Shown here piece by piece: positions 53,577 through 64,000 of a DNA stretch of 64,000 nucleotides. The stretch comes from Sphingomonas edaphi (GTDB lineage Bacteria; Pseudomonadota; Alphaproteobacteria; Sphingomonadales; Sphingomonadaceae), in NCBI RefSeq assembly GCF_003583725.1, contig NZ_QXTF01000002.1:1-64000 (forward strand), given 5' to 3'. The notes under the pieces are model-generated. The model did no database searches. It was not told the origin of the DNA and worked only from the letters and a program-made list of their open reading frames with translations. The translations under genes were made by a program, and so were the position numbers. The stretch's first letter is position 1; the number at the start of each line of letters is the position of its first letter.

Positions 53577-55034
53577 GTGACGATGCTGAGGCCAAGGGCG
53601 CGCAAGGTGAAGGTCCTGGCGACGCTGGGACCGGCTTCGTCTAGTCCCGAGATGATCCGCGCGCTGATGGAAGCCGGCGCAGACGCTTTTCGCATCAACA
53701 TGAGCCATGGCGAGCAGTCGGAAAAGGCTCGGCTGGTCGAAATTATTCGCGAACTTGAGAAGTCGCTACATCGGCCGACCACCATTCTTTTCGATTTGCA
53801 GGGACCGAAGCTTCGGGTCGGCAAATTCAAGGGCGGATCGGCAATAGTGCAAACAGGCCAGCGCTTCGTCTTGGACGACGACCGCGCACTCGGTGACGAG
53901 ACCCGCGTCCAGCTGCCACATCCGGAACTGTTCGCGACGCTGAAGGCTGGCGATCGATTGCTAATCGACGATGGCAAGGTGCGGCTGAAGGCCCTTTCGG
54001 TCGACGACGCGCGAATTGAGGCGGAAGTGGTCGTCGGCGGAAAAGTGTCGAACAACAAGGGCGTCAACGTTCCCGACGTGGTCGTGCCAATCCCCGCGTT
54101 GACCAAGAAAGACCGGAGCGATCTCGATTTCGCGCTGGAGCAGGGAGCGGATTATATCGCCCTATCCTTCGTCCAGCGGCCAGAGGATCTGGCCGAGGCG
54201 CGCGAGCTGGTCGGCGAGAAGGCCGCGCTCCTCGCGAAAATCGAAAAGCCGCAGGCGCTAGAGCGGCTGGAAGAGTTATTGGAACTAGCCGACGCGGTGA
54301 TGGTCGCGCGCGGCGATCTCGGCGTCGAGCTTCCGCCCGAAGGCGTACCGCCGGCGCAGAACCGAATTGTCGCCGCGGCGCGACAAGCTGGCAAGCCGGT
54401 GGTTGTCGCGACGCAAATGCTGGAATCAATGATTGTTTCGCCGACGCCGACGCGAGCCGAAGTCAGCGACGTAGCCAATGCGATCTACGAAGGCGCAGAC
54501 GCGGTCATGCTCTCGGCCGAGAGCGCCGCGGGCAATTATCCAGTCGAGGCGGTCCAGATGATGGACAAGATCGGCCGAAGCGTCGAAGCGGATCCGGTCT
54601 ATGCCGCGCGGATGCACTTCACCGAAACACCGGCCGAAGCGACGACTGCCGACGCGCTCTCCGAAAGCGCGGCGCAGATCGTGCGCATCCTCTCGGCACG
54701 TGCAATGGCCTGCTACACCTCCTCGGGGTCAACCGCGCGGCGCATCGCACGGGAGCGGGCGGCGGTGCCCACGCTGGCCATGACCGCCAGCCTGACAGTC
54801 GCGCGACGGCTGGGCCTGCAGTGGGGCGTGCACGCGGTCCACACGCGCGATGTTTCCAGCTTCGAAGAAATGGTCGGCAAGGCCAAGCGCATGGCGCTGC
54901 GCCATCGCCTTGCTGTAACCGGCGACCGGATGGTTATCATGGCGGGCGTGCCATTCAAGACCAGTGGATCGACCAATGTAATCCACGTTGTGAAAATTGC
55001 CGGCGACGAACTGGACGGGCGGTCGGATGCCTAA
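53577..55034 (+). CDS. pyk: Pyruvate kinase
   Basis: Last step of glycolysis: phosphoenolpyruvate + ADP to pyruvate + ATP. It is 485 residues (GTG 53577; ATG 53583 two codons later is equally possible). The N-terminus KVKVLATLGPASSSPEMI and FRINMSHG bind nucleotide and metal. The active-site segment LLAKIEKPQALERLEEL contains the catalytic Lys, MVARGDLGVELP carries metal ligands, and VVVATQMLESMI and MLSAESAAGNYP complete the barrel. The B domain lies at about 75-165. The stop overlaps the nnrD stop by four bases (CTAA). Confidence 0.97.
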   Translation: MTMLRPRARKVKVLATLGPASSSPEMIRALMEAGADAFRINMSHGEQSEKARLVEIIRELEKSLHRPTTILFDLQGPKLRVGKFKGGSAIVQTGQRFVLDDDRALGDETRVQLPHPELFATLKAGDRLLIDDGKVRLKALSVDDARIEAEVVVGGKVSNNKGVNVPDVVVPIPALTKKDRSDLDFALEQGADYIALSFVQRPEDLAEARELVGEKAALLAKIEKPQALERLEELLELADAVMVARGDLGVELPPEGVPPAQNRIVAAARQAGKPVVVATQMLESMIVSPTPTRAEVSDVANAIYEGADAVMLSAESAAGNYPVEAVQMMDKIGRSVEADPVYAARMHFTETPAEATTADALSESAAQIVRILSARAMACYTSSGSTARRIARERAAVPTLAMTASLTVARRLGLQWGVHAVHTRDVSSFEEMVGKAKRMALRHRLAVTGDRMVIMAGVPFKTSGSTNVIHVVKIAGDELDGRSDA

Positions 55035-55900
55035 TGTGGAAGAAGGGCCGGCACTTCGCCCGGAATTTCCCGCGCCAGGAAGCCCAGCGGCCCGACCCGG
55101 TCCGACAAGGCGCGGCCTGCTTCACCGTGGAGCCAGACCGCCCAAAGGAGGGCGTTAAGAGGTTCTGCGCCCCGGGCAAGCAATCCGCCGGCAATTCCGG
55201 CCAAAGTATCGCCAGATCCGGAAACCCCGAGCCCTGGCCCGCCGCCGCGATATTTCCACGCCCGCCCATCGGGCGCGACAGCATGGCTTTCGACGCCTTT
55301 AACAAGGACGAACGCTCGGTAACGTTTGGCGCATCGGCGGCCAGCTGCGAGCGGTTCCGATTCGATGTCCTCTGGTCGACAGCCCAACAGGCTCGCCATC
55401 TCACCCGAATGCGGCAGCAGAATCGGGGGGACAGATGTCCGGCGCACCTCTGCCTCGCAGTCAGGCAGGACGTGCAGCATCGCCGCATCTAGCGCCATCG
55501 GCTTGTCCAGTGCGAGCAGTTCCCGGCCGAGCGGCGCGGCGGCGTTGTTCGCTTCGAGTCCGGGGCCGGCCACGACCGCGTCGGCCTGATTCGCAAGCTG
55601 CGCCAGCGGTCCGATCGACGATGTAGCGAACCCGCCATCGCGATGCGTTGCATGGCCGACGACCATCGCTTCCGGCATGGCAACGCCGAGGGGAACCGCA
55701 ACCGCATCCGGGCAAGCGATCTGCAGCTTGCCAGCTCCAGCGCGCATCGCCCCGTGGGCCGCAAGCAGCGCGGCGCCGGGCACGTCGCGCGATCCGGCGA
55801 TGATCAGGATGGTGCCGTGGCTATCTTTGTCGCCGCCTCGGATCGTCGGTAGCGGAAATGAGTTGAGCAAATTCCGGTCGAGCGGATCGGGCAGCGTCAT
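55031..55900 (-). CDS. nnrD: ADP-dependent NAD(P)H-hydrate dehydratase (stand-alone)
   Basis: Repairs damaged NAD(P)H hydrates. It is 289 residues from ATG 55900 (MTLPDPLDRNLL). A ribokinase-like fold is shown by GGDKDSHGTILIIAGSRDVPGAA, VAGPGLE, LLPHSGEMASLLG and the catalytic GVSGSGDTLAGIAGGL. The N-terminal epimerase domain (NnrE) found fused in many bacteria is absent and not encoded nearby. It overlaps the histidine phosphatase gene by four bases (ATGA), and the longer open frame upstream is antisense-like noise. Confidence 0.92.
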   Translation of the reverse strand: MTLPDPLDRNLLNSFPLPTIRGGDKDSHGTILIIAGSRDVPGAALLAAHGAMRAGAGKLQIACPDAVAVPLGVAMPEAMVVGHATHRDGGFATSSIGPLAQLANQADAVVAGPGLEANNAAAPLGRELLALDKPMALDAAMLHVLPDCEAEVRRTSVPPILLPHSGEMASLLGCRPEDIESEPLAAGRRCAKRYRAFVLVKGVESHAVAPDGRAWKYRGGGPGLGVSGSGDTLAGIAGGLLARGAEPLNALLWAVWLHGEAGRALSDRVGPLGFLAREIPGEVPALLPH

Positions 55901-56667
55901 CGCGACCCCGTCATCATGTCCGGTTCCGCGGTCTTGAGCGTGCCCTCCGCATCGAGGGGCGCGCCATGATTCCAAAGCGCCAGCGTCGGGACGCACAGCG
56001 ATTGCTCGTTCGGTTCGAAATCGTATGCGCAGATGCCGCAGTTGAGGATTTCGGCCTGCCTGTCGATCGCCAGGATCTGCCCTTCGGTCAGTTCCTCCAG
56101 TATGTAGCGCATACACAGCACGACCACTTGGTGCGCGACCACCAAGACTCGCTTGTCGGCGTAATGAAGGTTGATTGTGTTAAGCATCGAGCGGAGCCGC
56201 AGGATCACGTCTGCCCAGCTCTCTCCGCCCGGCGGGCGATGGTAGAATTTCCCCATCTTGGAACGGTGGGAGGCCTCTTCCGGATATTTCTCGCGAATGC
56301 CGAGCGTGGTCAGTCCGTCAAACACACCGAATTCGCGCTCACGCAGCCGTTCATCGAGGATCGTCGGCTTGGCACCACCGCAAAGTCCGCCAGCCGCGCA
56401 AATCGCTTCGGCGGTCTGCCGCGAACGGACATAAGGGGATGAGAGCAACACTTCGGGTTTTTCCGCCTCAGGCAGGCCAGCAAACCAGTGCCCGGTGGCT
56501 TCTGCTTGTCGGTGGCCAAGCTCGCTAAGCGGGACATCCACGTCGCGCAGGTCAAGATCGATGACGGAGAGGCCGGCCTCATGCGCGGCATCCCGCGCGA
56601 CATTGCCCTGACTTTGTCCGTGCCGGACGAGCCAAAGCCGCTCCGGCCAATGCTGTCGAACTGCCAT
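55897..56667 (-). CDS. Histidine phosphatase superfamily (phosphoglycerate mutase-like)
   Basis: A 256-residue branch-1 histidine phosphatase. The phospho-His motif is LVRHGQSQGNVARD, with SSPYVRSRQTAEAI, an acid region REREFGVFDG and the second His in VLVVAHQVVVLCMR. The C-terminal ~50 residues, NCGICAYDFEP..., extend past the core. Substrate is unknown; cofactor-dependent mutase is less likely given the extended loop and lack of neighbours. It is upstream of and coupled to nnrD. The 220-bp gap before the next gene is AT-rich and holds its promoter region and that of the repeat protein. Confidence 0.88.
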   Translation of the reverse strand: MAVRQHWPERLWLVRHGQSQGNVARDAAHEAGLSVIDLDLRDVDVPLSELGHRQAEATGHWFAGLPEAEKPEVLLSSPYVRSRQTAEAICAAGGLCGGAKPTILDERLREREFGVFDGLTTLGIREKYPEEASHRSKMGKFYHRPPGGESWADVILRLRSMLNTINLHYADKRVLVVAHQVVVLCMRYILEELTEGQILAIDRQAEILNCGICAYDFEPNEQSLCVPTLALWNHGAPLDAEGTLKTAEPDMMTGSR

Positions 56668-56819
56668 TCGCGAGCTCCTTCGGCGTCATGAAAGCCCGAG
56701 GGTGGCGAAAGGTTCAGATCAGCCGAGTCGATGACAGGTTGTTGCCATTGAATTGCGAACACGACGTTATTGCCCAGCAAAGTTTATGTATTTGAATCAA
56801 CAACTTAACCCATAGCCAT

Positions 56820-56848
56820 TTGACTTGTGTTAATTTACCATTTACCTA
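56820..56848 (+). promoter_or_regulatory. Candidate promoter upstream of the alanine-rich repeat gene
   Basis: TTGACT (56820-56825) is followed after 17 bp by TACCTA (56843-56848). The -35 is good and the -10 weak. The surrounding 56760-56850 stretch is much more AT-rich than the rest of the window. A near-direct repeat of GCATC (three copies, about 56861-56877) follows before the start codon. Confidence 0.3.
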
Positions 56849-56887
56849 GCCGTCGCTTATCGCATCGCATCGCATCGGGGGCGAGCC

Positions 56888-58474
56888 ATGGCTACCTTAC
56901 AGCTGAACGGTAGTGCGCGTAGCAATCGCAAATTTCTGGTGAGTGGAGCGGCCGTCTTGGCGGTGGCCGCAGCTGCCTATGGGCTAGGGCGGGTCTATCC
57001 ACCACTTGGCCCGACGGCAGGTACAGTGGCCCCGGCAGAACGCTACGTGTCGAGCCAGATCGGTGCCGGCGACGTCATGCTGGGCGATACGGCTATTCCA
57101 AAGCTGATGCAGACCGACGCGTTCGAGGTGATGTCGAAGAATCCGACATTTCGGGCGCTGGCGGCTGATCCCAATTTCGCGCAACTCGCGCAAAACAGCC
57201 AGGCGATGGCCGCAATCGCTGCCAACCCTCAGGCCTTCACGGCTCTCGCCGCAAATCCGCAGGCATTCGCGGCGACCCTGAGCGCGGCGCAAGCAGTCTC
57301 CTCTGCGGCCCGGAGTGCAAGTGCCGCTCAAAGCCAAGCGTTCTCGGCCATGTCGGCGCATAGTAGTGCGTTCAACGCGCTGGCGGCGCACCCGCAAGCA
57401 TTTGCCGCGATTGCGGCCAATCCATCTGCCTTCGCCAGCTTCGCAAATAATGCGTTGGCGTTCCAGAAGGCAGCGGCCAACCCCTCGGCTTCCGCCGCGA
57501 TGGCAGGCCATGCGGCGGCGTTCAAACAACTTGCCGTCGACGCCAAAGCCATGTCGGCGATTGGGCGCGATTCCCAAGCGTTCGCGGCAGTGGCCGCCAA
57601 TGCCGAGGCCTTCAAGGCGCTGTCGGCCAATGCGCAGGCACTTGCGGCAGCCGCCAAAGCGGCGAGCGCATTCAGCTCAAGTGCACGGTCTGCTCTAAGC
57701 AGCCAGGTGGCAGCGGCGATGTCGCAGCATTCGGCAGCCTATCAGGCTATGTCGATGCAGCCGAAGGCGTTTGCGGCAATGGCCGGAAATCCACAGGCGT
57801 TCGCGGCTCTCGCAGCGCATCCAAAGGCTTTCGCGGCGATTGCAGCCAATGCGAACGCATTCTCCAGGTTCGCAAACAATGCGTCGGCCTTTCAGAAGGC
57901 GGCTGCCAACCCTTCTGCGATGTCGGCGATGTCGGCCAATGCCGAAGCGTTCAAAGCTCTCGCCGCTGACGCAAAGGCGATGTCAGCAATCTCGGCTAAC
58001 GCCAGCGCATTCAGTGCGATCGCCGCCAATGCAGATGCTTTCGCGTCACTGGCCGCGAATGCACAAGCATTTAACGCCGCAGCCAATGCACAGGCGCTCG
58101 AGGCCATGTCGGCCAACGCGGCCGCTTTCCGCGCTTTGTCCGTTAATGCACAGGCGCTGTCGGCTTCGGCGCGCGCCGCGCAGGCGTTCAATGCATCCGC
58201 CGCCGCCGCTCGGCTGGCATCGCAAGGCCAGCTTAATGCCCGGGCGATGCAAGCGATGGCGGCCCATCCGCAGGCGTTTGCCGCGATGTCGGCGCAGCCG
58301 CAGGCTTTCGCCGCGGTTGCTCGCAATGCGAGCGCTCTGCAACTGCTGGCCCGTAACGCGAACGCCTTCAATTCGTTGGGACAGGTTCACCAGTTTCAGG
58401 CGCTCGCAGCCAATCCGGCCTTCTCGGCGGCAATGCGCAACGCAAGCTTCGCGTCCAGCCTGTCGTCGAGTTAG
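56888..58474 (+). CDS. Alanine-rich decapeptide-repeat envelope protein, unknown function
   Basis: A 528-residue protein I cannot assign to a family. A basic N-terminus and one hydrophobic helix (about 16-38, FLVSGAAVLAVAAAAYGLG) suggest a signal anchor with the rest in the periplasm. From about residue 95 to 510 it is made of tandem ten-residue units of the form A-F-x-A-[LIM]-[AS]-A-N-[AP]-x, for example AFAALAANPQ and AFKALSANAQ. These are organised in longer super-units whose AHPQ/AHPK starts lie at 57389, 57818 and 58265 (143 and 149 residues apart). There is no Cys or Trp in the repeats. It is the first gene of a rightward cluster with a metallopeptidase fusion 36 bp downstream. Confidence 0.8.
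   Translation: MATLQLNGSARSNRKFLVSGAAVLAVAAAAYGLGRVYPPLGPTAGTVAPAERYVSSQIGAGDVMLGDTAIPKLMQTDAFEVMSKNPTFRALAADPNFAQLAQNSQAMAAIAANPQAFTALAANPQAFAATLSAAQAVSSAARSASAAQSQAFSAMSAHSSAFNALAAHPQAFAAIAANPSAFASFANNALAFQKAAANPSASAAMAGHAAAFKQLAVDAKAMSAIGRDSQAFAAVAANAEAFKALSANAQALAAAAKAASAFSSSARSALSSQVAAAMSQHSAAYQAMSMQPKAFAAMAGNPQAFAALAAHPKAFAAIAANANAFSRFANNASAFQKAAANPSAMSAMSANAEAFKALAADAKAMSAISANASAFSAIAANADAFASLAANAQAFNAAANAQALEAMSANAAAFRALSVNAQALSASARAAQAFNASAAAARLASQGQLNARAMQAMAAHPQAFAAMSAQPQAFAAVARNASALQLLARNANAFNSLGQVHQFQALAANPAFSAAMRNASFASSLSSS
57200..58430 (+). repeat. 30-bp coding tandem repeat (decapeptide units) with ~430-450-bp super-repeat
   Basis: Within the alanine-rich gene, about 40 diverged 30-bp units encode AFxA[LIM][AS]AN-type decapeptides. 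Super-unit boundaries (His codons of AHP) at 57389, 57818 and 58265 are spaced 429 and 447 bp. Each super-unit ends in a Ser/Ala/Arg-rich break such as SSARSALSSQ. Codon choice varies between copies, so the array is old rather than freshly amplified. Confidence 0.8.
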
Positions 58475-58510
58475 CGTCGGCGGGCCGCATGTTGGTCCGA
58501 AAGGGGGGTG

Positions 58511-61500
58511 ATGAGGGGGAGCGCACGTCGCGAGATGCGCTGGAGCGGGCGATTGATAGCGCTCGCCCTGTGCGGAACGGCGACAGGGGCTCTTGCCCAA
58601 GCCAATCTTGAAGTCCCGCCAACGGAGCCCCGGCCGCCAGCCGTTGAAGATAGTCAGGCGCCTGTGCTTGGCGTGACGCCGCCGCCCCAGCCGGAAAAAA
58701 CCGAACATGTGAAGCCTAGCGTTTCCGGCATTCCGCTGTCGACAATCGAGACCGACAACCAGCTATTGCTCTACTTCGACCCGACGCAGACCTACCTGAC
58801 GCCCTACGTCGGCCGGGCGTTCGAAAACGCCATTGACTGGCACAAGGAGCGATTAAACTGGACGCCGTGGGACCGGACGACGGTGCTCATTAAGGACTTC
58901 AGCGACTATGGAAACGCGGCAGCGCGCTCGTCCCCGAACAATTCGGTATTGCTGGACGTCGCGCCGCTGTCGCAGCGGATGGAGACGTTCACGCCTGGCG
59001 AACGCTTTTTTACTCTGATCAACCATGAGCTGGCCCATGTCGCGACGCTGGATGCGTGGAACCAGAAGGACGCCTTCTGGCGCAGGACCCTTGGCGGCAA
59101 GCCGATGCCGATCCAGGAACACCCGGAATCAATCCTTTATCACTACCTCACCACACCTCGCGACAATGTGCCGCGCTGGTATGCTGAAGGCGCGGCAGTT
59201 TTCTTCGAGACTTGGATGGCAGGTGGGCTCGGGCGGGCGCAGGGCGGCTATGACGAGATGGTCTTCCGGGCGAAGATCCGCGACAAGGACAAGCTCTATT
59301 CGCCGCTAGGACTCGAAAGCGAGGGGATCGCGATCGACTTCCAGATAGGGGCGAATGACTATCTTTACGGAACACGCTTCTTTTCTTGGCTAGCGCTGAC
59401 CTATGGACCCGCAAAGGTCATGGAGTGGCTTCGCCGGGATGAAGGAAGCGCTGCCTTCTACGCGACCCAGTTTCGGCGAGTATTCGGCAAGCGGCTCGAC
59501 GATGCCTGGGACGATTGGCAGGCTTGGGAACGTCTGTTCCAGCGCGATAACCTGAACCGGCTGTCAACCTATCCGCTCACCGAGGTGCAACACCTTAGCT
59601 CCCGCGGCCTCGGCTCGATGTCTCGCGGCTTCGTCGATGAGCGAAACAACCAACTCATTGCCGCTTTCCGCTATCCGGGTGAGATCGGATTTGTAGGCAC
59701 GATGGATCTGGCCACCGGCAAGCTGCGCAAGCTGTCCGAGATCAAGGGCATGATGCTCTATTTCGTGACCAGCCTAGCGTTCGACCCCGATACCCGAAAA
59801 GCCTATTATGTCGACGACAACCGGGCCTATCGCGATCTCATCGAAATCGATGTCGATACCCGCCGGAAACGGATGCTGTTACGCGACGCAAGAATAGGTG
59901 ATCTCGTTGTCAACCCGCGCGACAAGTCGATTTGGGGCGTCCGGCACCAGAATGGCTATGCGACGATCGTCCGAGTTCCGCCGCCCTACGGCGGGTTCAA
60001 TCAAGTCTATACGTTCGAATATGGACTGACACCGTTCGACCTCGATATCTCGCCGGATGCCTCGATGATTTCCGCCAGCTTGGGCGAGATCAACGGCACG
60101 CAGTCGGTGCGCATCTGGAATCTGGCCGCGCTCGAAGGAGGCGGGGGTCTGGAGGAGGTAGCCCGGCTCGACCTGCCTCCATCGATCCCAGAAGGCTTCA
60201 CCTTCTCTCCCGACGGAAAGTCCTTGTACGGCAGCAGCTACTACACCGGCGTATCGAATGTTTTCAGGTTCGATATTGCGTCGAAGAAATATGACGTTCT
60301 GAGCAATGCGTCGACAGGTTTCTTCCGGCCAATCGTGCGGCCGGACGGACGGTTGTTGGTCTACGAATATACCGGGCAGGGGTTGAACCCATCGTTTATC
60401 AGCCCGCAGGTGCAGCAAGACCTGGGCACCGTCGAATTTCTCGGAACGAAGGTCGTCAAGGCGCATCCAGAACTGAAGGATTGGGGCGTCGGTACGCCCG
60501 CAAAAGTCGACATCGACGGACGCACTCACCGGCGCGGCATGTATCATGCGACCGGACGGATGAAGCTCGCTGCCGCATACCCAGTGATCGAGGGTTACAA
60601 GCGGAAGCCCGCGATCGGTTACTATGTCCAGTTCGAAGACCCAATGCAGTTCCACCAGCTGAGCGCGACAGTTAGTGTTTCGCCATTCGGCGATCTCCCG
60701 ACCGATGAGCGCCTGCATGCGGATGTCGAATATCGCACCCTTAACTGGAAGCTGCGCTACTGGCACAACGATGCCGACGTTTACGACCTTGGCGGACCGG
60801 TGCTTAGAAGCCGCAAGGGTGATGCATTCAGCGTCGGCTACAACAAGACGGTGATTTTCGATCCGCCACGGCAGCTCGATTTGTTCGCCAACGCGACGCT
60901 CTATCGAGGGCTTGAGCAGCTGCCGGGCGCGCAGAATGTGCTCAGCCCTGAAAACATCTTCTCGACGGAAGCAGGGTTGCGCTACACCAACACCCGCAAC
61001 TCGCTGGGCGGGGTCGATCACGAGAAGGGCATTGCTTGGCGGGTGATCGGCGGCACCGACCATGCGCTCGGCAAAACCTATCCGCATTTCGCGGCGGGCA
61101 TCGACTATGGTGTACCTCTGCCATGGGGCAACAGCAGCGCCTGGATCTATGCCCACGGTGGCCTGGTTGGCGGGCCGCCGGAAAGTCCGCTTGGTGCCTT
61201 CTACCTTGGCAGTTTCCGCAACAACTATTTCGATAATCGGCCCGAGAAGCGCTACCGGGAGCTGGAAAGCTTTCCGGGCTTTGCCATCGACCAGATTGCC
61301 GCGCGCAGGTTCGCCAAGGTGACTGGAGAATTGAACCTACCGCCGATCCGATTCGCAGAAGTCGGGACACCGGCATTTTTCCTGACCTTTGCGCGGCCGG
61401 CAGTATTCGTGGGGTCGCTGCTGGTCGAGGCGCCGTCGGGGCGAAACTACCGCCTGAATGATATCGGCGCCCAACTCGATTTCGCGTTCACGGTCGCCAT

Positions 61501-61600
61501 GCGCTTGCCGATGGTCTTCTCGGTCGGCGTAGCGCGCGGCTTCGGCGACAAGGACATCGACGGCGCGACCGAATGGATGGCCTCGTTGAAAATCATGTAG
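58511..61600 (+). CDS. Outer-membrane metallopeptidase / beta-propeller / beta-barrel fusion
   Basis: A 1029-residue exported protein (signal peptide ends at ALAQA; ATG 58511 follows AAGGGG, with GTG 58508 as an alternative). After a Pro-rich linker comes a gluzincin peptidase domain (about 80-330). Its HELAH motif is His172-Glu173-His176, and 50 residues later YAEGAAVFFE supplies Glu226 as the third zinc ligand. The middle (about 360-680) has PD40/TolB-like propeller repeats such as LDISPDASMISAS and FTFSPDGKSLYGSS. The last ~330 residues (from about 700) alternate hydrophobic and polar strands rich in Tyr, Phe and Trp, as in outer-membrane barrels, with the final residues MASLKIM. Family naming is not possible beyond these domains. 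It follows the decapeptide-repeat gene by 36 bp and precedes a PrsW-like gene by 10 bp. Confidence 0.82.
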   Translation: MRGSARREMRWSGRLIALALCGTATGALAQANLEVPPTEPRPPAVEDSQAPVLGVTPPPQPEKTEHVKPSVSGIPLSTIETDNQLLLYFDPTQTYLTPYVGRAFENAIDWHKERLNWTPWDRTTVLIKDFSDYGNAAARSSPNNSVLLDVAPLSQRMETFTPGERFFTLINHELAHVATLDAWNQKDAFWRRTLGGKPMPIQEHPESILYHYLTTPRDNVPRWYAEGAAVFFETWMAGGLGRAQGGYDEMVFRAKIRDKDKLYSPLGLESEGIAIDFQIGANDYLYGTRFFSWLALTYGPAKVMEWLRRDEGSAAFYATQFRRVFGKRLDDAWDDWQAWERLFQRDNLNRLSTYPLTEVQHLSSRGLGSMSRGFVDERNNQLIAAFRYPGEIGFVGTMDLATGKLRKLSEIKGMMLYFVTSLAFDPDTRKAYYVDDNRAYRDLIEIDVDTRRKRMLLRDARIGDLVVNPRDKSIWGVRHQNGYATIVRVPPPYGGFNQVYTFEYGLTPFDLDISPDASMISASLGEINGTQSVRIWNLAALEGGGGLEEVARLDLPPSIPEGFTFSPDGKSLYGSSYYTGVSNVFRFDIASKKYDVLSNASTGFFRPIVRPDGRLLVYEYTGQGLNPSFISPQVQQDLGTVEFLGTKVVKAHPELKDWGVGTPAKVDIDGRTHRRGMYHATGRMKLAAAYPVIEGYKRKPAIGYYVQFEDPMQFHQLSATVSVSPFGDLPTDERLHADVEYRTLNWKLRYWHNDADVYDLGGPVLRSRKGDAFSVGYNKTVIFDPPRQLDLFANATLYRGLEQLPGAQNVLSPENIFSTEAGLRYTNTRNSLGGVDHEKGIAWRVIGGTDHALGKTYPHFAAGIDYGVPLPWGNSSAWIYAHGGLVGGPPESPLGAFYLGSFRNNYFDNRPEKRYRELESFPGFAIDQIAARRFAKVTGELNLPPIRFAEVGTPAFFLTFARPAVFVGSLLVEAPSGRNYRLNDIGAQLDFAFTVAMRLPMVFSVGVARGFGDKDIDGATEWMASLKIM

Positions 61601-61610
61601 GCGTGGTGGC

Positions 61611-62660
61611 GTGACGATCGCGGATATTATCGATTGGTCGCTGGCCCTGATGCCAGTGCTCTTGATGGCCGCGCTGTTCGCTTGGCTCGACGTGTTCAAG
61701 CTGATGTCGGTTCGCGAGATGGCCGGGCTGCTGCTGCTCGGCGGCGCGACGGCGCTGGCCGCGTGGCCGGTTAGCGGGGCGGTGCTCGACCAGCTGCCGA
61801 TGGGCTTTTCCTTTTACAGCCGGATGGTCGCGCCATGGACTGAGGAAATGTTGAAGCTGATGGCGGTCATCCTGCTATTTGCGGGAAACCGCATAGGCTT
61901 CAAGCTCGACGCGGTCATCTCCGGTTTTGCCATCGGCGCGGGCTTTTCGGTGGTGGAGAACATCTTCTACCTCACCCGTTATCCGGAACTGGCTGCGCCG
62001 GTGTGGATGGTCCGCGGACTAGGCACTGCAATCATGCACGGGACCACTGCGGCGATCATGGCCGCGGTCGCGCATGAACTGGGCGAGCGATCAGCGCGAA
62101 GGGCGGGCGCGGCGTTCCGGCTGAACCCGCTGTGGTTCGTCCCAGGCTATCTGACCGCCAGCCTGATCCATCTGGCATTCAATTACTTTCCCGATCGGCC
62201 GATGCTGGTGATGATGGTGACGTTGGTATTGGCTCCGTTCTGCCTTTTGGCGCTGCTTCGTTTTGGAGAGAGCGAGGCGCAGAACTGGTTGGCGGAGGAA
62301 TGCACCATTCATGAGATGATGCTGGCGGCGTGGAAGAGTGGCAGATTTCCCGACGACACAAGCGGCCGACGCATCGCGGCACTGGCGCGGCGGGTCAGTG
62401 GGCAGGAGGCGGAGCGGATCCGCGCCTATTGCATGCTGAAGACGGAGCTGGTGCTGGCCGCGGAGCGCGAACTGCAGGACGGCGACCGGCACATCGCGCC
62501 GGAACAGCGGCAACGGTTCCGCGACCAGTTCGCTCAACTGGAGGCGATGCGGCAATCCATGAGCCGCACCGGTTTCGCCGCGCTTCGCCCGCTGCTTCCC
62601 TTCAGTCGTAATGACGAATGGGAGTTGTCTGAACTTCGGGAACTGATCGGCCGCGATTGA
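61611..62660 (+). CDS. PrsW-like intramembrane metalloprotease
   Basis: A 349-residue membrane protein starting at GTG 61611, ten bases after the preceding stop. About seven or eight hydrophobic helices fill residues 5-220. PrsW/CAAX-protease-like motifs are present: [12 protein letters not shown] (glutamate pair), [11 protein letters not shown], the [17 protein letters not shown] histidine stretch and LIHLAFNYF. The last ~130 residues form a soluble helical domain rich in Arg, Glu and Gln. PrsW in Bacillus starts cleavage of an anti-sigma factor. Here no sigma/anti-sigma pair is adjacent; the neighbours are the envelope peptidase fusion and the repeat protein. Confidence 0.85.
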
Positions 62661-62706
62661 CCAAATGGCCTCGCGCGTCGAAAGAGCGGCCAACAAGAGG
62701 ATTTCC

Positions 62707-64000
62707 ATGGCCACGACGATCGAACAGCTGGAACAACGGCGCGCCGCGGCGCGCATGGGCGGAGGTCAGAAACGCATTGACGCGCAACACGCCAAGGGGC
62801 GGCTGACCGCGCGCGAGCGATTGACCGTGCTGCTCGATCCCGACTCGTTCGAAGAAGTCGACATGTACGTCGAGCATAACTGCGTCGACTTCGGGATGGA
62901 GAGCCAGAAGTTCCCGGGCGATGGCGTGGTCACGGGCAGCGGCACGATCAACGGCCGTCTGGTCTATGTCTTTGCGCAGGATTTTACCGTGTTTGGCGGA
63001 TCGCTGTCCGAGCGGCACGCCCAGAAGATTTGCAAGATCATGGACGCGGCGATGAAGGTCGGAGCGCCGGTGATCGGTCTGAACGACAGTGGCGGTGCGC
63101 GCATCCAGGAAGGCGTGGCATCGCTCGGCGGCTACGCCGAGGTATTCCAGCGCAATGTGCTGGCATCAGGTGTCGTCCCGCAGCTCAGCCTGATTATGGG
63201 GCCGTGCGCTGGAGGCGCGGTCTATTCCCCAGCGATGACCGACTTTATCTTCATGGTGAAGGACTCCAGCTACATGTTCGTCACGGGTCCCGACGTGGTT
63301 AAGACCGTGACCAATGAAGTCGTGACCCAGGAGGAACTGGGCGGCGCGGTCACCCACACGACCAAGTCAGGTGTTGCCGACGTGGCGTTCGAAAATGACA
63401 TCGACGCGCTGTTGGCGGCGCGCGAATTCTTCGACTTTCTGCCGCTGTCGAACCGGCATGACGTTCCCGAGCGGCCGACCGAGGACGCTTGGGATCGGAT
63501 CGAGGAGAGCCTCGACACGCTCATACCGCCGAGCGCGAACCAGCCCTATGACATGCATGAGCTGATCCGGAAGGTCGCGGACGAGGGCGATTTCTTCGAG
63601 CTTCAGCCAAACCATGCCGGCAACATCATCATCGGTTTTGCGCGGATCGAGGGGCGCACGGTGGGTATCGTTGCCAACCAGCCGATGGTGCTGGCCGGCT
63701 GCCTCGACATCAACTCCTCGAAGAAGGGCGCGCGCTTTGTCCGCTTCTGCGACGCGTTTGAGATTCCGATCATTACTTTCGTCGACGTGCCGGGCTTCCT
63801 GCCGGGCGTGGGGCAGGAACATCACGGCATCATCAAGCATGGCGCAAAGCTGCTGTTCGCCTATGCCGAAGCGACGGTTCCGAAGATCACGGTCATAACC
63901 CGAAAGGCTTATGGCGGGGCTTACGACGTCATGGCGTCGAAGCACCTGCGTGGGGATTTGAACTATGCCTGGCCGACTGCCGAGATCGCCGTGATGGGCG
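62707..64000 (+). CDS. pccB: Acyl-CoA carboxylase beta subunit, propionyl-CoA carboxylase type (3' end outside window)
   Basis: Carboxyltransferase subunit that moves the biotin-bound carboxyl to propionyl-CoA, giving methylmalonyl-CoA. 431 residues are visible of about 510. The N-terminus [20 protein letters not shown], the acyl-CoA pocket [40 protein letters not shown], the C-terminal half with [35 protein letters not shown] and the catalytic [13 protein letters not shown] are all present. The alpha (biotin) subunit is not seen and would lie to the right. ATG 62707 lies 46 bp after the PrsW-like gene. Confidence 0.96.

Follow-up and report, generated by a model that had tools for sequence, protein, structure and literature searches.

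Genes and features at the locus

Our study examined a window of 64,000 nucleotides of Sphingomonas edaphi (the whole stretch of DNA analysed), in which three consecutive genes on the forward strand, termed A, B and C here, were found between genes assigned by Pfam to pyruvate kinase and carboxyl transferase. Gene A (56888..58474, +), delimited by its open reading frame, its sequence period and its structural model, starts with ATG and encodes 528 aa. A hydrophobic N-terminal anchor (about residues 16-34; 56933..56989, +) is followed by a juxtamembrane leader (residues 45-78; 57020..57121, +) and by an array of ten-residue repeats, or decads (57110..58471, +). The highest 19-residue hydropathy window ahead of the array head starts at residue 16 and scores 1.90, compared to a maximum of 1.18 after it. 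A single N-terminal membrane anchor, as proposed by the initial annotation, is plausible on this sequence profile; the contrast was slight in two homologues (L013, 1.51 versus 1.46; L015, 1.35 versus 1.32). The anchor motif AYGxGRxYPPxGP was invariant in all 18 aligned members of the genus.

The regular ten-residue period described in the initial annotation was borne out. Across residues 76-528 the strict decamer motif occurs 28 times; 1,000 shuffles averaged 0.83 occurrences and never exceeded 7. Identity autocorrelation peaked at lag 10 (z 11.4), lag 20 (z 9.0) and lag 143 (z 8.7), and Phe-Phe spacings peaked at 10, 20 and 30. PSSM parsing returned 33 decads, three of them weak (score <5), together with degenerate stretches, and the previous estimate of about 40 repeats is fair in view of these and of the 41 helices of at least four residues in the model of A. 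The nested super-units of 143 and 149 residues were recovered from the HPxAFAA unit at residues 168, 311 and 460, the step of 149 being read from the parse alone. All of the 33 decad-type homologues analysed scored above the maximum of 200 shuffles each and together contributed 810 decads of the make-up [N/D/H/Q]-[A/P]-x-A-[F/L/M]-x-x-[L/M/A/I]-A-x. Ala was found at position 4 in 90 % of these and at position 9 in 75 %, Phe at position 5 in 73 %, and positions 3, 6 and 10 were the most variable, these proportions being subject to the loose motif used to pick the decads, which itself limits positions 1, 2, 4, 5, 8 and 9. Each decad looks like an N-cap residue, then Pro or Ala, and then a short amphipathic helix. 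The repeats had been called uncharged, which is nearly true of the window protein but not of the family, as net charge past residue 80 ranged from +15 to -19 across the seven A proteins looked at.

An AlphaFold2 model of A, built with an alignment of 18 homologues, predicted an alpha-solenoid without strands, in which each decapeptide forms a helix of about eight residues. Residues 81-510 had a pLDDT of about 74-96, the final 18 residues one of 64-70, and the pTM was 0.71; the first 75 residues were modelled without confidence. Longer predicted helices at residues 124-140, 249-265 and 421-445 split the sub-arrays. Because the alignment was shallow and the sequence is repetitive, more trust can be placed in the local helix-turn pattern of the model than in the overall curvature of the rod. 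The array is predicted to be a solenoid of short helices with N, D or H as the helix N-cap and A-F-x-x-L-A as the core, which supports the earlier suggestion that helices are stacked with one aromatic in each ten-residue unit and corrects its reading of the unit as two pentapeptides. A beta-helix of A(D/N)LxX pentapeptides was rejected, as the model contains helices only and no pentapeptide-repeat family was matched in Pfam at E≤1. The array had also been distinguished from a heptad coiled coil, and both heptad and hendecad forms were rejected, given a z of only 3.2 at lag 7, a lag 11 outside the top 16 and short helices that are broken every ten residues rather than long and continuous.

The protein had been described as unrecognised, and no confident match to a named family was found in Pfam, NCBIfam, PADLOC, PHROGs or PDB profiles. 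Assignments to XPC-binding, STI1, YlbE or Cons_hypoth95 were rejected, as the Pfam matches contradicted one another and seldom included a significant single stretch. PF17830 scored 16.6 bits on the window protein and 18.5 bits on its head, below the gathering cut-off of 29.1; this cut-off was passed by two of 21 distinct A proteins (L007, 38.5; L013, 33.8), neither with a significant single stretch, and the other 19 fell under it. YlbE exceeded its own cut-off in four of the same 21 proteins and Cons_hypoth95 in one. A weak STI1/DP-like character was seen at residues 77-124: STI1-HOP_DP matched 21 of 29 head segments of A proteins at E≤10 (best 1.3e-5), and a profile of the first decads (66 columns, 29 sequences) had the STI1 chain 2llw as its best match among 177,635 PDB sequences, at E 0.048. 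The STI1/HOP DP, XPC-binding and ubiquilin STI1 domains (PF17830, PF09280) share with A short helices begun by N-P or D-P, a hydrophobic F/M/L face and this weak score on the first decads. However, the ubiquilin STI1 domain is described as a single U-shaped domain of six helices (PMC13083928), whereas A is predicted to form an open array of about 40 helices. The likeness is a lead as to how such helices could work, and not a sign of membership.

When the array profile was compared to PDB sequences, one chain was returned at E≤0.1, namely 7qlr, the tail fibre of Clostridioides difficile phage CDHS1_22 (E 1e-6, with a composition bias of 21.5 bits), and the window protein matched the tail fibre family PHROG 7809 at E 2e-8. 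The stretch of 7qlr compared has a hydrophobic lag-10 z of 6.6 and ten-residue decads of the form [NSK]xxA[FMI]xx[IV]AN in the same register as A, and decad helices may thus already be present in a solved structure. Unlike A, 7qlr is a phage fibre, and the two were compared by sequence alone. It was not among the best 50 of the 224 PDB matches returned by Foldseek for the whole A model, where neither these 224 nor the 78 BFVD matches included any at E≤0.001. A tblastn search with A of 50,697 phage records gave nothing at E≤0.001.

Gene B (58508..61600, +) encodes 1030 aa and was characterized by motifs, Pfam, Foldseek and a structural model as carrying a gluzincin-like domain, a TolB-like propeller and a predicted C-terminal beta-barrel. 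The motif HELAH lies at residues 173-177 (59024..59038, +), with the downstream E227 in WYAEG. H173, E174, H177 and E227 were invariant in 18 of 18 aligned members, and HExxH with a downstream Glu (PRW..EG) was present in all 28 distinct full-length B proteins, one of them settled by eye; the full-length B and C proteins used for motif counts were chosen by BLAST alone. B accordingly has the gluzincin signature, and Peptidase_MA_2 was matched by Pfam in one of 18 members (E 0.0087). The propeller region (about residues 360-640; 59585..60427, +) was indicated by PD40 in Pfam and by TolB as the top Foldseek match (E 2.5e-9). The long-stranded region that follows (about residues 670-1030; 60515..61597, +) is probably a beta-barrel, with moderate confidence, as suggested by long modelled strands at 675-1029 and by Omp85_2 in one of 18 members (E 0.0034); the model as a whole had a pTM of 0.49 and a pLDDT of <50 at residues 129-286, the peptidase domain. 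Despite the likeness of its propeller, B differs from TolB in adding the gluzincin-like domain and the predicted barrel, and it scored far below the NCBIfam TolB equivalog cut-off (20.8 versus 343 bits).

Gene C (61611..62660, +) encodes a PrsW-like intramembrane protease of 349 aa, which belongs to PrsW by Pfam (PF13367, E 1.3e-16; 61.1 bits compared to a cut-off of 23.5). EExxK, ENxx[YF] and two His motifs were found in 27 of 27 distinct full-length C proteins, three of which were settled by eye. C shares the Pfam profile and the EExxK and His motifs with PrsW, but it was far below the cut-off of the NCBIfam equivalog NF033739 (19.1 versus 225 bits), it is partnered with A and B, and no anti-sigma factor or sigma gene is present among the three genes. 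A scan for promoters and terminators performed no better than shuffles.

A constant leader and a variable array

The juxtamembrane leader of A carries the signature GT..P..R....Q....D[VI]..GD......MQTD. In an alignment of eight A proteins from four families, one of which has a different array, G45, T46, P49, R52, Q57, D62, G66, D67, M74, Q75, T76 and D77 were invariant, and single departures were seen in other members (P49 replaced by G in G057; MQSD in L009). Of 34 A proteins, 27 were fitted by a strict regular expression of this signature. Inspection of the other seven by eye showed Ala at a place restricted to Ser or Thr in six, and differences at two places in that from G057. The protein with a different array (genome G953; L102:3722-5029, +) retains the anchor and ...GTTAGTVAP..RY..SQV...DV..GD..I...MQTD, with 51 % identity over 51 residues (E 1.8e-17). 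Past position 80, however, its 355 residues are mostly AASQ and AASN tetrads in place of the Phe decads, with periods at lag 8 (z 15.3) and lag 4 (z 11.7), 205 Ala, three Phe and no charged residue, and the loose decad motif gave three chance-like matches. This appears to be a second repeat class behind the same leader. As the leader was kept whilst the array was replaced, the leader seems to be the constant, defining part of the protein and the array to be interchangeable. Counting against interchangeability, all but one of the 34 A proteins read have retained decads, an argument that the decad fold matters in most lineages.

Variation was also found within the decad-type arrays. A proteins ranged from 380 to 617 aa (33 proteins), and forms with one super-unit and with two both occur. 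In 23 of 29 proteins (L013, L015, L018, L026, L027 and L043 were left out for want of a clear second unit), mean identity between super-units was 0.605 within a protein, compared to 0.460 for first units and 0.495 for second units between proteins. The copies were sisters within one protein in 11 of the 23. This length range and the sister super-units are as expected of a filament that is little constrained in surface or length; counting against such a filament, the copies were not sisters in the other 12.

Within the leader, the anchor is not confined to the module, as it resembles the N-terminus (about aa 10-64) of a YkuD-type L,D-transpeptidase (PF03734; L004:865-1677, -) in G005, a genome 77 % complete that lacks the trio. 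Short anchor-only matches were also recorded in G054, G062, G065, G071 and G076. In the genome of the window, no L,D-transpeptidase with the A anchor was found: four strong relatives matched the query only from residue 47 onwards, and the sole match to query residues 6-59 was A itself.

Co-inheritance, gain and loss of the three genes

Among 71 genomes of the genus, A, B and C were all present in 29 (split over contigs in G014 and G065), part of the trio was present in three, and none in 39. The partial trios G070, G077 and G078 hold two, two and one of the genes, and each gap lies at a contig end. By gene, A was detected in 30 genomes (31 matches, that of G005 being only the transpeptidase anchor), B in 31 (34 matches, those of G048, G081 and G082 being weak and confined to the propeller) and C in 31; when the survey was limited to the 53 genomes with a completeness of ≥90 % and a contamination of ≤5 %, raw tallies were 22, 24 (including the weak matches of G048 and G082) and 22. 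The order was A-B-C, with gaps, estimated from match ends, of 28-153 nt between A and B in 28 of 30 cases and of 5-57 nt between B and C in 28 of 28. The two exceptions were G068 (1,047 nt) and G057 (an estimate of -123, in a divergent copy where the A and B matches end short). In G068 (contig C69), the A protein next to this spacer of about 1 kb has an unusual C-terminal tail, possibly reflecting an insertion. The initial annotation had called for a check of whether the repeat gene co-occurs with the downstream metallopeptidase gene (B), and no exception was met in the genus surveyed other than at contig ends; the implied pair, however, needs to be extended to a unit of three genes.

Beyond the genus, B was found at E≤1e-20 in nine of 397 genomes of the family, three of them in other genera, and all three carried A-B-C. 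A survey of the order found B in 15 of 396 genomes, all of the window's genus, and a survey of the class found B in four of 240 and A, by profile, in three of 240, the genome of the window being counted in both. The fourth B genome of the class was G953, which has A-B-C, with an A missed by the profile and a C that is PrsW by Pfam. The trio was thus present in all three other alphaproteobacterial families with B, with C running off the contig in G1075. Amongst named genomes, the eight B loci were all labelled Sphingomonas or Sphingomicrobium, and they include B homologues of Sphingomonas alba SE158 and S. hankyongi SE220. Across the phylum, at E≤1e-12, a distant B-like protein was detected in eight of 299 genomes besides the window's own, all of one family (f35). 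The five of these that were read (L080-L084) are about 950 aa long and stand in varied neighbourhoods, in which no A or C match was seen, indicating that neither A nor C is needed for the domain set of B to occur. In G781, the B-like gene is accompanied by one (L084:5516-6217, +) whose product combines Cys/Met/His-rich, perhaps metal-binding NPCSMKKH repeats with a SoxA/TsdA cytochrome c domain (PF21342).

Comparison of the locus with its nearest relative revealed a unit of gain or loss. Judged by the two flanking genes, which are 96 and 87 % identical, this relative is G024. Window positions 53578-56669 and 62705-63998 align to its genome at a distance of 93 bp from each other, as compared to the 6,035 bp of the block 56670..62704 in the window. 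The corresponding flanking pieces are separated by 256 bp in G069, and in G052 the left match ends earlier, such that the edge could not be placed. Both flanks stood on one contig and strand in 52 genomes of the genus, of which four have the module between them, 19 have it at another place and 29 lack it. A comparison of 12 module contexts found nothing common to all of them but A, B and C; the site itself is the same in the window, G046 and G047. In G022, a TPR/CHAT-domain protein of 1028 aa (PF12770, E 3.1e-51; L045:9745-12831, -) is encoded just upstream of the module, and it had no relative among the other contexts.

A mobile element was considered and rejected: no direct or inverted match of at least 10 bases was found between the two module edges examined, the left edge had no internal repeats, and a search of 72,556 plasmids for B gave no match at E≤1e-20. 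An IS240-type transposase ORF (PF13610, E 1.2e-40; L047:1178-1903, +) does, however, lie about 100 bp past C in one of the 12 contexts, that of G057, the most divergent module copy in the genus.

Interpretation and relation to known systems

We suggest, tentatively and at somewhat less than an even chance, that A is a leader-tethered filament protein that is processed or displayed by B and C, the three forming one envelope module. A would be made as a precursor tethered in the inner membrane, with a short cytoplasmic tail, one N-terminal membrane helix, the conserved leader of about 35 residues and then, outside the membrane, the long Ala-rich helix-forming array, which would serve as a filament or spacer in which one repeat type can stand in for another. 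Its partners would recognize the leader. The intramembrane protease C, a natural candidate to act on the membrane helix of A, would cut or hold it there, and B, with its metallopeptidase domain, its TolB-like propeller and its putative barrel in the outer membrane, would receive the array across the periplasm and trim, anchor or display it, leaving the array spanning the periplasm or on the surface. The topology and cleavage of A, and the place where it ends up, are inferences here, and so is the long periplasmic or surface rod suggested by the initial annotation. This reading fits best with a conserved leader beside two protease-like genes and an array that varies in length, charge and type. 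In favour of a module we count the co-inheritance, the fixed gene order, the empty site, the retained peptidase motifs and a leader that stays constant across the array swap; against it we count the low-confidence models of the barrel and peptidase domain of B, the non-specific anchor and the stand-alone B-like proteins.

Close behind this reading, and rather doubtful in itself, is one in which A is normally left uncleaved and its rod links the inner membrane to B in the outer membrane, setting the place or distance of that protease, whilst C is a quality-control protease for misassembled A. Such a tether would be consistent with a leader that stays fixed while the arrays differ in length and surface charge, and with the predicted rod-like solenoid, and the decads of the 7qlr fibre suggest rods as one use of the repeat. 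However, lengths of 380-617 aa and the switch to AASQ repeats would change its reach, and the retention of C in all 29 complete trios suggests a regular rather than an occasional job. A holdase chaperone would have been our first choice before the G953 protein was found: the decad solenoid would act as a multivalent hydrophobic groove of STI1/DP-like kind, from which captured clients, either unfolded or membrane-bound, would be passed on to B. The match to 2llw and the STI1-HOP_DP matches to head segments point this way, and PMC13083928 describes a Met-rich groove formed by the six helices of the ubiquilin STI1 domain. Against this stand the sub-threshold Pfam scores of the window protein and its head, the few A proteins that pass PF17830, the passing of YlbE and Cons_hypoth95 in the same set and the lack of a Foldseek match at E≤0.001. 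The G953 array has no such Phe decads, for which reason we lowered the chaperone reading and now regard it as unlikely.

Patchy gain and loss in module-sized steps, and the transposase ORF beside C in G057, would also agree with a mobile defence, toxin or competition cassette whose proteases release A, and PMC3482391 describes PrsW as a peptidase for the processing and export of polymorphic toxins. Such a role in conflict is nevertheless very unlikely, since none of A, B and C had a PADLOC match at E≤0.1, the module is made up of these three genes alone, in which Pfam and NCBIfam recognized no toxin or immunity domain, and the plasmid search with B and the phage search with A were both negative at the thresholds given above. 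Least probable, and already disfavoured, is that A is an Ala-rich low-complexity protein with no specific role that hitchhikes in the operon: its high Ala content and variable array would allow this, but co-inheritance without a clear exception and a leader common to four families argue against it.

The putative processing of A through its leader invites comparison with known sorting systems. In rhombosortase/GlyGly-CTERM and myxosortase/MYXO-CTERM, a dedicated intramembrane protease is co-inherited with proteins bearing a conserved membrane-anchor signature. The A-B-C unit is alike in both respects and differs in that its anchor is N-terminal, that the operon holds one candidate substrate gene and that the protease is PrsW-like. 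The individual parts fall into domain classes that are already known (PrsW, TolB-like propeller, gluzincin, barrel and helical repeats); among the matches listed in open-access PMC literature, we found no paper on the module and no description of the combination or of the leader with a swappable array. It is possible, if on balance doubtful, that A-B-C is an undescribed bacterial system for maturing and displaying a repeat polymer, in which the PrsW-like protease and the outer-membrane gluzincin-propeller-barrel protein recognize a fixed N-terminal leader and process any Ala-rich array behind it, such that lineages swap filaments between Phe-decad solenoids and AASQ arrays. If so, it would be, to our knowledge, the first sorting system in which the membrane signature is N-terminal and an intramembrane protease is dedicated to the export of a repeat filament, and the decad array would represent a new class of alpha-solenoid.

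In summary, a repetitive protein that resembles low-complexity noise is one third of a three-gene unit that includes two dedicated protease-like genes. Within one genus, 32 of the 71 species genomes carry this unit, and it extends to at least four alphaproteobacterial families. A decad solenoid would add a very simple ten-residue building block, useful for protein design, to the known helical repeat proteins, and the constant leader and variable array allow a concrete test of whether an N-terminal membrane leader can direct the sorting of proteins by PrsW-like proteases.
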